From positions 619,501 to 683,500 of the forward strand of contig CANNCV010000001.1 in the NCBI GenBank assembly GCA_947503245.1: a DNA stretch of 64,000 nt. The letters run 5' to 3'. This stretch comes from an uncultured Sphingomonadaceae bacterium. GTDB lineage: Bacteria; Pseudomonadota; Alphaproteobacteria; Sphingomonadales; Sphingomonadaceae. Below the pieces are notes generated by a model. The model ran no database searches. It saw nothing but the letters and a program-made list of their open reading frames with translations, and was not told where the DNA came from. Positions within the stretch are counted from its first letter, which is position 1. Every line of letters starts with the position of its first letter. Both the position numbers and the translations under genes were made by a program. Positions 27,203 to 30,570 of the stretch are shown in pieces.

Positions 27203-27565
27203 ATGGCAAAACGCATCTTGGTGGTCGAAGATAATGATTTGAACCGCAAATTATTCTGCGATTTGTTGCGCGCGCATGGTTATAGCGTGGAGCCAGTGTC
27301 AGATGGCCGTGAAGTGCTGGACAAAGCGCGTGAGTTTATTCCCAATCTGATGATCATGGATATCCAATTGCCGCATATTAGCGGGCTGGAACTGATCGAA
27401 GCGATTAAGGCGGACAAGACGCTGAAAACCATTCCCGTGCTGGCCGTGACTGCTTATGCCGGTACCGGTGACGAACAACGCATCCGCGCCGCCGGAGCAG
27501 AGGGCTATATCTCCAAACCCGTCAGCATCGGCCCCTTTGTTGAGGCCGTGAATAAGCTGATTTAG
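27203..27565 (+). CDS. divK: Single-domain response regulator DivK
   Basis: A 120-residue receiver domain without output. Acidic pair E9-D10 (VVEDNDLNRKLF), phosphoacceptor Asp53 (MIMDIQLPHISG), the conserved Thr in VTAYAG and Lys in YISKPVSI near residue 106 are all intact. Sequence and DUF3572 neighbour identify it as DivK, the essential polar regulator that acts on DivL-CckA to control CtrA. GGGACGGA upstream serves as ribosome site. Caulobacter has pleD next to divK; here the next gene on the plus strand is 3 kb away. Confidence 0.95.
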   Translation: MAKRILVVEDNDLNRKLFCDLLRAHGYSVEPVSDGREVLDKAREFIPNLMIMDIQLPHISGLELIEAIKADKTLKTIPVLAVTAYAGTGDEQRIRAAGAEGYISKPVSIGPFVEAVNKLI

Positions 27566-27613: not shown

Positions 27614-27763
27614 CTAACTGTCATCAGAGACAATACCGTCAAGGTTTGTATTTAAACTAAGCTCAACCTGATCAACATTTTTGTCCAGTTTAATCAGGAC
27701 AGGAGTGCTCCATGATTTGAGATTGTGACTGTTAGAATTTGATGTTTGGTCATTAGCATGCAT
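27614..27763 (-). CDS. 49-residue peptide gene, RiPP-precursor-like
   Basis: Too short for the ORF track. The minus-strand frame starts ATG CAT GCT at 27763 and ends TAG at 27614, giving a 49-residue peptide beginning MHANDQTSNSNS. The central KSWSTPVLIKLDKNVDQVE resembles the W/Y-x-x-P-x-L-x-x-L-(D/G) leader motif that RiPP recognition elements bind in lasso-type and related precursors; the C-terminus NLDGIVSDDS would be the core. A strong GAGAGG ribosome site lies eight bases before ATG and TATATATTC just upstream could be a -10 box. No modifying enzyme (asparagine-synthase-like, PqqD-like or rSAM) is in the window, so it may be an orphan or an ordinary small protein. Confidence 0.6.
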   Translation of the reverse strand: MHANDQTSNSNSHNLKSWSTPVLIKLDKNVDQVELSLNTNLDGIVSDDS

Positions 27764-27913
27764 TTTTGTACCCTCTCAAAGAATATATAGATACTTTACA
27801 GGCAGATACAGCTATTCAATAGACAGTCAATATAGTTGATCCGGAAAATGTGGCGAATGTGACGGCACAGCACGATTTATCATCATAGCGCGCGCGACGC
27901 CTTGAGCTGGCAC

Positions 27914-28014: not shown

Positions 28015-30387
28015 CTATAAAGGATTGCCATCCCTATCGCGAAAGACTTCGCGACGGCCGACATGATCGGGGGCGCTGACAAGGCCGTCCTCTTCCATCT
28101 GCTCAATCAAGCGGGCGGCGGTGTTATAGCCGACGCGCAATTGACGTTGCAGCCAGCTGGTTGATGCTTTCTGGCTTTCAAACACCATCTGGCAGGCACG
28201 GCGATAGCGTTCATTTTCCGGATTATCGTCAATCGTTGCGCCATCAAGCGCAAAGCCGCCATCAGCGGGTTCTTCAGTAACCGACTGGACATAATCGGGC
28301 TGGCCCTGTGCGCGCCAATGGTCGGCGACGCGGCGTACTTCGTCATCAGAGACAAAGGGGCCGTGCACACGGCTAAGCTGTTTGCCACCGGGCATATAGA
28401 GCATATCACCTTTGCCGAGCAGCTGCTCCGCGCCCTGTTCGCCCAAAATGGTGCGGCTGTCGATTTTTGAGGTGACGTGAAAGCTGATCCGCGTTGGTAG
28501 GTTAGCCTTGATAACGCCAGTGATAACGTCAACCGATGGCCGCTGTGTCGCCATGATAAGGTGGATGCCCGCAGCCCGCGCTTTTTGCGCCAATCGCTGG
28601 ATCAGGAATTCCACCTCTTTGCCCGCTGTCATCATCAGATCAGCGAGCTCGTCAACAATCACCACAATTTGCGGCAATGGCTCAAAATCAAGCTGCTCTT
28701 CCTCAAAAATTGGCTGGCCGCTATCAGGGTCAAAGCCGGTTTGCACCTTACGGCCCAATGGCTTGCCTTTGGCTTTGGCGATCTTCACCTTCTCATTAAA
28801 ATTTGCCAGATTGCGCACAGAGATGGACGACATCATGCGATAGCGTTCCTCCATCTGCTCCACCGCCCATTTGAGCGCGCGGACGGCCTTTGCCGGTTCG
28901 GTCACCACGGGGGAGAGCAGATGCGGAATATCATCATAGCTGGAGAGTTCCAGCATTTTGGGGTCGATCATGATCATCCGGCACTGATCGGGCGTCAGGC
29001 GATAGAGCAGTGACAGGATCATGCAGTTCAGGCCGACGGACTTACCCGAGCCGGTGGTGCCCGCCACCAGCAGATGCGGCATGGGCGAAAGATCGGCAAT
29101 AACCGGGTCGCCGCTGATATTTTTGCCCAGTATGATGGGCAATTGGCCGCGATTATCCGCAAAATGATGGCTGGCCACCATTTCATGCAGAACAACCATA
29201 TCGCGCTGTTGGTTCGGCAGTTCGATGCCAATCACATTTCGGCCGGGTATAACCGCGATACGCGCCGAAAGCGACGACATGTTGCGAGCAATATCATCGG
29301 CCAGCTGAATAACGCGGCTGGCTTTGATGCCAGGCGCTGGCTCCAGCTCATACATGGTGACCACAGGGCCAGGGCGTACAGCAGTGATATGGCCTTTAAC
29401 ATGAAAATCATCGAGCACATTTTCCAGCAAGCGCGCATTGCGCTCCAATGCCAGTTTGTCGAGCTTTGGTCCGGTGGGCGCTTCGGTCTGGTCCAGAAGA
29501 TCGAGCGACGGCAGATCATAATCACCAAAAAAATCGCCCTGACGGCTGGTCGGGCCAAGCTGCGCTTTGCGCGGCGGCAAGGACGGTTCAGTAATTTCCG
29601 GCGGAGCGCGGCGCTCTTGCCTCTCTGAAGCATCGCGCGGTTTGACCTTCTTATCGGTAACATCGCCAATATCAGTTTCGATGGCATCATCATCGCTATG
29701 GCGGGACCATGGCAGTGTGAAGCCGGTCAAGAAACTGGGCAGAGCGACGGCAAATTTTGGCTGTGGCAGGGTGAAGAGCGAGCGTTCAATGCGCAAAGCC
29801 TTCCAGACCATCCACAACCCGATAATGAGCGCTAGAGCAGACATGCCGATCATAACCCAGATTTGCAAATTCTCTGGCACCTGAGATTGCACCGCGCCAA
29901 TGCCTTTATTGGCTAAAATGCCGGTAAGTCCGCCCCATTGTGCGGGCAGACCGCCTGCGCGCCCTTCAAAAACCGTGCCGATAAACGCCGCAAGAAGCAG
30001 CAAGCCGCCACCCATTAATATGGTGTCACGCGGCCTTATCTTGTTATCGCCGCCATCCCATAAGCGCCGCGCAGTGACATAGATAAAGGGCAGAAGCAAA
30101 ACCGCAATCGGACCGATAAGATAGAGTGATCGATCGGAAACCCATGCTCCGGGCCGCCCCATCCAATTGCTGACAAGGCCGCCTGCTGCTGTGCTGGGAG
30201 ACGGATCGGATAATTCATGGCTCATCAACGCCAGTGCGAAGAACACGATGAAGACAAGCAACAGGCCAGCGACAATAAGCTCTAGGCTGCGGCCCAGACT
30301 TTCGCGCATGATAGCGCGCCAATCACCCGCTTTTGCTGATCGGGATTTGCTGCCTGTCCCGCTTTTTGTCATCGCCCTGCTCGCCAT
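28015..30387 (-). CDS. ftsK: DNA translocase FtsK
   Basis: A 790-residue septal DNA pump that clears and resolves chromosomes at division. About four N-terminal membrane helices (residues ~30-190), a Pro/charged linker (~210-300), then the RecA-like motor with Walker A VAGTTGSGKSVGLN near 455, Walker B IVVIVDELADLMM near 580, QRPSVDVITGVIKANLPTRI, and the C-terminal gamma winged helix (STSWLQRQLRVGYNTAARLIEQME) that reads KOPS. I start at ATG 30387 (MASRAMTKSG) because GGAG lies six bases upstream; the track's extra 30 residues lack this. Divergent from the UbiH gene. Confidence 0.96.
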   Translation of the reverse strand: MASRAMTKSGTGSKSRSAKAGDWRAIMRESLGRSLELIVAGLLLVFIVFFALALMSHELSDPSPSTAAGGLVSNWMGRPGAWVSDRSLYLIGPIAVLLLPFIYVTARRLWDGGDNKIRPRDTILMGGGLLLLAAFIGTVFEGRAGGLPAQWGGLTGILANKGIGAVQSQVPENLQIWVMIGMSALALIIGLWMVWKALRIERSLFTLPQPKFAVALPSFLTGFTLPWSRHSDDDAIETDIGDVTDKKVKPRDASERQERRAPPEITEPSLPPRKAQLGPTSRQGDFFGDYDLPSLDLLDQTEAPTGPKLDKLALERNARLLENVLDDFHVKGHITAVRPGPVVTMYELEPAPGIKASRVIQLADDIARNMSSLSARIAVIPGRNVIGIELPNQQRDMVVLHEMVASHHFADNRGQLPIILGKNISGDPVIADLSPMPHLLVAGTTGSGKSVGLNCMILSLLYRLTPDQCRMIMIDPKMLELSSYDDIPHLLSPVVTEPAKAVRALKWAVEQMEERYRMMSSISVRNLANFNEKVKIAKAKGKPLGRKVQTGFDPDSGQPIFEEEQLDFEPLPQIVVIVDELADLMMTAGKEVEFLIQRLAQKARAAGIHLIMATQRPSVDVITGVIKANLPTRISFHVTSKIDSRTILGEQGAEQLLGKGDMLYMPGGKQLSRVHGPFVSDDEVRRVADHWRAQGQPDYVQSVTEEPADGGFALDGATIDDNPENERYRRACQMVFESQKASTSWLQRQLRVGYNTAARLIEQMEEDGLVSAPDHVGRREVFRDRDGNPL

Positions 30388-30570
30388 AAGGCACTCCGTA
30401 TTGTCCGGTTCGACTGCCCTTAGCGCGGCTGTCGCTGTGTTGCGGCCATAATGCACAGGCAGAGGACTCCGCGTCAAGAGTCGAAAATGTCACGTTTTCT
30501 GCGGCTTGAATCATCTGGTGAGCGACACCAATTCTTTGCATAGACAATCATATCGCGATAAAGGCAGCTA

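Follow-up and report, generated by a model that had tools for sequence, protein, structure and literature searches.

A short gene of an uncultured Sphingomonadaceae bacterium belongs to a dispersed family of probable lasso-type precursor peptides

The window gene

What does the short open reading frame (ORF) that lies between a DivK-like response regulator gene (27203-27565, plus strand) and an FtsK-like translocase gene (28015-30477, minus strand) encode, and could enzymes encoded elsewhere in the genome act on its product? An earlier note on this DNA had pointed to a hidden gene for a 49-residue peptide at 27614-27763, with no strand given. The ORF exists and lies on the minus strand of the window (the whole 64,000-nt stretch that was analyzed). 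It contains 49 codons plus a stop codon, with an ATG start, and it is annotated as a candidate precursor gene from the ORF reading and from family membership. The coding sequence runs from 27763 to 27617, and the stop codon is at 27616-27614 (window ORF reading). The gene is at C1:647117 in its own genome (G000). The full translation is MHANDQTSNSNSHNLKSWSTPVLIKLDKNVDQVELSLNTNLDGIVSDDS.

The strong ribosome-binding site that had been described is present. It reads GAGAGGG (27771-27777, minus strand) and is separated from the ATG by a 7-nt spacer. The possible -10 box did not hold up: the promoter scan at the gene found 2 promoter-like sites in 600 bp, with 0.9 expected, which is at chance level. 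The terminator scan found no terminator-like site at the gene. The peptide had 0 matches in the Pfam and NCBIfam hmmscan. No orthologue was found beside divK in the two genus-mates (G001 and G002).

The peptide family

A single-sequence search with the window peptide gave one weak second match, which is part of a tandem trio on C2. A four-sequence profile gave eight members in the same genome, namely, the window gene and seven paralogues. The profile search placed the paralogues as the trio of 49-codon genes (C2:516743, 517224, and 517487), a pair upstream of rpsL (C2:234573 and 234866), and two single genes (C2:508842 and C1:1088514). All eight are short intact ORFs, and their gene neighborhoods are otherwise ordinary. 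The family counts at least 8 members here, and relatives contain more than 50. The gene had been read earlier as an orphan precursor or a new small-protein family; this is too narrow, given the family and the enzyme set that this genome also encodes. A Ruegeria match to the window peptide, from a single-sequence scan of genome contigs, falls in an unrelated frame, antisense to a gene for a monooxygenase, and was rejected as chance.

All eight members contain W-x-x-P-x-[LV], Ile or Val at W+15, an acid at W+24 or W+25, and a C-terminal Ser. Column statistics were taken from 47 family members, all of them encoded in cyclase-containing genomes. The motif there has the form W-x-x-P-x-[LVI], a conservative variant of Y-x-x-P-x-L, and W and P are present in 47/47. 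Ile or Val is found at W+15 (position -2) in 38/47. The first acid is at core position 8 (W+24) in 33/47 and at core positions 7 to 9 in 43/47. A C-terminal Ser ends 57 of 57 subfamily members, versus 9.3% of ORFs of comparable length. Ser ends were part of the model's training, so the cleaner figure is the held-out one, in which 17 of 17 parsed matches with a model alignment reaching no further than column 42 of 49 also end in Ser.

Close paralogues have constrained leaders and diversified cores, although the counts are small. For 516743 and 517224, pN/pS was 0.05/0.24 in the leader and 0.29/0.25 in the core (small counts). The pair at 234 kb gave 0.12/0.18 in the leader and 0.46/0.17 in the core (small counts). 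Hairpins of the form GGGCGCC...GGCGCCC, followed by T runs, lie 3' of the trio genes (G000:C2:516600-517480) and are terminator-like. As read in the sequence, they suggest that each trio precursor may be transcribed separately.

A sister group of sphingomonad peptides was also observed (L092, L096, L099, L103, L104, L106, L141, and others). It has the form WxxPxLxxLGxxxDVA/G..., with the core counted from the residue after DVA. Nine of 10 contain no Asp or Glu at core positions 7 to 9, and position 8 is usually Gln. The peptides end in Ser (one in Thr).

Predicted anatomy of the window peptide

The window peptide was compared with BsfA, an experimentally studied phosphorylated lasso precursor with Ile(-2) from the bsf cluster of Bradymonas sediminis (PMC10368454). 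BsfA, translated here from the gene sequence printed in that paper, reads Y-KK-P-Q-L-...-I(-2)-R/G...D8, with the cut site (slash) shown by MS (PMC10368454). The family shares with it an aromatic-x-x-P-x-L leader, Ile/Val(-2), a 17-residue spacing to the core, and an acid at core position 8; the aromatic residue is W here and Y there. All lasso precursors reported before BsfA had Thr(-2), and Ile/Val(-2) precursors have been reported in Sphingomonadales (PMC10368454). Thr is absent from the penultimate leader position of the window peptide, which has Val33. Val33 is 15 residues after W18, and Ile(-2) of BsfA is 15 residues after its Tyr. BsfA accepts Ile(-2) experimentally, so the window peptide was placed in the Ile/Val(-2) subgroup.

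The predicted leader of the window copy contains residues 1 to 34 and ends in ..QVE, with Val at -2 (27662-27763, minus strand). It rests on BsfA-identical spacing from WxxPxL (PMC10368454) and on the column statistics. The leader-like W-x-x-P-x-L-x-x-L-D motif of the earlier note is present as described, as W18-S-T-P21-V-L23-I-K-L26-D27, and the proposal of a RiPP gained support. WSTPVL (W18-L23; 27695-27712, minus strand) is the predicted leader recognition motif and the counterpart of the lasso YxxPxL; its W and P are invariant in the family. By likeness to BsfA, the cut is predicted between E34 and L35. A cut one residue later is also possible, because a small residue is found at the next position in 38/47 versus 32/47 (family columns); this would put the Asp of the window peptide at core position 7 instead of 8.

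The predicted core, LSLNTNLDGIVSDDS, contains residues 35 to 49 (27617-27661, minus strand), as placed by the BsfA spacing, with an alternative start one residue later. A C-terminal core had been suggested before as LDGIVSDDS, which is too short. Asp42 (27638-27640, minus strand) is core position 8 and the candidate isopeptide acceptor; the first Asp or Glu is exactly there in 33 of the 47 members. Ser49 (27617-27619, minus strand) is C-terminal, as in 57/57 subfamily members, and is a candidate phosphorylation site, at the place of the known lasso-kinase site (PMC9266682).

Taken together, the window ORF quite probably encodes a lasso-type precursor that is processed in trans, with residues 1 to 34 as the leader, LSLNTNLDGIVSDDS as the core, and a ring closed to Asp8. 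The window copy is atypical in having Val rather than Ile at -2 and Leu at core position 1. Leu at core position 1 is unusual for lasso peptides.

Membership of the window copy

A model made only from peptides of 12 other genomes put the window ORF at the top of the 1504 ORFs in the window (E=1.4e-5, genome scaled), and the best value of the same model in 41 shuffled or reversed windows was 0.023. A model made only from 11 peptides whose genes lie no more than 20 kb from a lasso-type cyclase gene gave it first place as well (E=6.4e-4 versus 0.95 in shuffles); the training peptides had been gathered iteratively with models containing the window peptide, so some circularity stays, which the two restricted models mitigate and do not remove. 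The window gene is a real small gene and a member of the family. A chance ORF in an AT-rich intergenic stretch would fit the short frame, the chance-level promoter-like sites, and the lack of a positional orthologue. It is very improbable, as the window ORF outscores every ORF of the 41 shuffled or reversed windows in the other-genomes model (genome-wide E=1.4e-5). The gene could also be a decaying precursor copy that is no longer used, being divergent, without a positional orthologue, and low in score relative to most paralogues (it is among the two weakest-scoring members in the genome). We consider decay unlikely; the frame is intact, the ribosome site is kept, and so are all family hallmarks, including W, P, a hydrophobic -2 residue, Asp8, and the C-terminal Ser.

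The enzyme set

A lasso-type enzyme set is present at C2:519.9-527.6 kb, all on one strand and on another contig than the window gene. It encodes a B2 protease (NF033537; 71.5 bits versus a cutoff of 33), a PqqD-like B1 protein (C2:522189-522473; PF05402; E=1.8e-16), a sulfotransferase (PF00685, Sulfotransfer_1), an ABC protein that is a putative exporter (C2:519875-521644), and an HprK-like kinase. The kinase contains the H-K-D-D motif residues (LHASG...GTSGAGKST...TDD); it matches HprK_rel_A at E=6e-8, below that model's own cutoff. A lasso-cyclase-like Asn_synthase protein and an NTP_transf_5 nucleotidyltransferase complete the set. Both the PqqD-type and the asparagine synthase-type genes that the earlier note had advised looking for elsewhere in the genome are thus on C2. 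Its statement that there is no modifying enzyme stands for the window, where the ORFs of the 64,000 nt include no evident RiPP enzyme, but not for the genome. The trio is clustered with the B and C genes, 7 to 8 kb from the cyclase gene, and the window copy is not. The sole match of the cyclase in plasmids was from Tistrella (29%).

These components are those of kinase-bearing lasso clusters (PMC10368454, PMC9266682, PMC8498205). A kinase and a nucleotidyltransferase are shared with the bsf cluster; the sulfotransferase is a difference. The BsfA kinase acts on Ser3, whereas the conserved Ser here is C-terminal. An HprK-like kinase, the H-K-D-D motif, and a conserved C-terminal Ser are shared with paeninodin, SyanA-SyanK, and pseudomycoidin, and the nucleotidyltransferase is shared with pseudomycoidin (PMC9266682, PMC8498205). 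Lasso kinases of Paenibacillus, Thermobacillus, and Sphingobium phosphorylate the C-terminal Ser (PMC9266682). A sulfotransferase gene is found beside some Firmicutes lasso clusters (PMC9266682, PMC8498205).

Other genes were observed in this region. Genes for two proteins with a phage tail-collar domain and an apparent signal peptide lie between precursors and enzymes in both genomes (G000:C2:517759-519060; G002:C1:2010382-2011670). Another RiPP-like locus (L004) lies between two precursor sites, at G000:C2:512432-516615. It encodes an MbnB/TglH/ChrH-type enzyme (PF05114; E=3e-103) and its DUF2063-like partner, together with a ferritin-like protein and a Cys-rich protein of 235 aa.

Co-occurrence and dispersal

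In the genus g16 (40 genomes), the peptides were found in 7/7 genomes with a close cyclase versus 2/33 without (Fisher P=1.9e-6), although these genomes are related and the seven cases are not seven independent events. In the genus of the window organism, G001 contains no lasso B2, close cyclase, or peptides, and G002 contains the enzymes and 11 family matches. The earlier note had held that the lack of a homologous frame in close relatives would count against the gene; the lack is real for the position beside divK, but the family itself is present in G002.

Ten related genomes contain 46 precursors, and in 36 cases the distance to the cyclase gene exceeds 20 kb. The 20-kb regions that hold the enzymes in G303, G306, G214, and G310 yielded no precursor. 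G303 is a single contig, and its nearest precursor is 182 kb from the cyclase gene. The enzyme set of G002 is itself split. The B2, ABC, and nucleotidyltransferase genes are at C2:291.7-295.1 kb, and the cyclase, kinase, sulfotransferase, and B1 genes are at C1:2012-2017 kb. The first part (L068; C2:291704-298078) adjoins mobilization/relaxase-like genes, and the other part is L153 (C1:2012416-2016598).

The scattered precursor architecture is the unexpected part of the system. The precursors of BsfA and of paeninodin, SyanA, and pseudomycoidin are in their clusters, and those here are scattered. No published description of scattered lasso precursors was found in the open-access papers searched, and the novelty of the architecture is provisional.

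Proposed processing

The PqqD-like B1 protein would bind the W-x-x-P-x-L leader. Phosphorylation of the C-terminal Ser would be the task of the HprK-like kinase, and further decoration may come from the nucleotidyltransferase and sulfotransferase. B2 would cut after the [IV]-x pair, which is V33-E34 in the window peptide. The Asn-synthase-like cyclase would join the new N terminus to Asp8 of the core, and the ABC protein would export the product. At least eight dispersed precursors, conserved in the leader and variable in the core, would be substrates of one enzyme set.

The peptide could be a precursor of which the product is not a threaded lasso. It might be a phosphorylated, glycosylated, or sulfated peptide, either linear or with a simple branched ring. 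The kinase, nucleotidyltransferase, and sulfotransferase are consistent with this, as are core position 1, which is often N, F, I, L, or V, the 4/47 members without an acid at core positions 7 to 9, and the sister group with Gln at position 8. We regard it as a doubtful reading with an appreciable chance, given the B2 protease, the lasso-cyclase-like Asn synthase, and the acid at core position 8 in most members. A second lasso-type cluster at C1:2009-2018 kb, with its own B2, PqqD, HprK-like kinase, and cyclase, is less likely to serve the window peptide, and we consider it quite improbable in that role. Its apparent precursor (..REWIAPEVEIMEAREAKNGPDTVFDGSQYS) has another leader spacing, and identity between its cyclase and that of C2 is only about 27%. 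The motif set of the window peptide is that of the trio next to the C2 enzymes, and the peptide family is found in genomes whose cyclase is closely related to the C2 one. The second cluster (L065; G000:C1:2009348-2018070) is flanked by IS-type transposases, and its candidate precursor ends in GPDTVFDGSQYS.

We favor a lasso-type product of the C2 set. It is fairly likely that the system as a whole is combinatorial, with one trans-acting set containing a kinase and a sulfotransferase, a dispersed library of fast-diversifying precursors, and, in several genomes, enzymes without any precursor next to them.

Implications

Precursors of prochlorosins and synechococsins occur one by one at scattered sites, and one promiscuous enzyme modifies them (PMC10783134). 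The family here is like the prochlorosins in its many genome-scattered precursors with a conserved leader and a variable core. This is a likeness of architecture only. Prochlorosins are lanthipeptides with Nif11-type leaders and LanM enzymes, and they have no sequence or enzyme relationship to this family; the window peptide has no Pfam or NCBIfam match, and the enzyme set is lasso type.

Lasso peptides are mined next to their enzymes, and most substrates here are elsewhere. Their number is consequently underestimated by genome mining, and some enzyme clusters seem to have no precursor. If the proposed system is real, it would be a lasso equivalent of the prochlorosins, with most of its substrates escaping ordinary cluster mining. 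The many copies, conserved leaders, diversified cores, and invariant modifiable C terminus make a library role a testable question. Several enzyme steps with a broad tolerance for cores would offer a natural way of building lasso libraries. A single enzyme set may turn the scattered precursors, probably trimmed, phosphorylated, and knotted, into an entire library of molecules.
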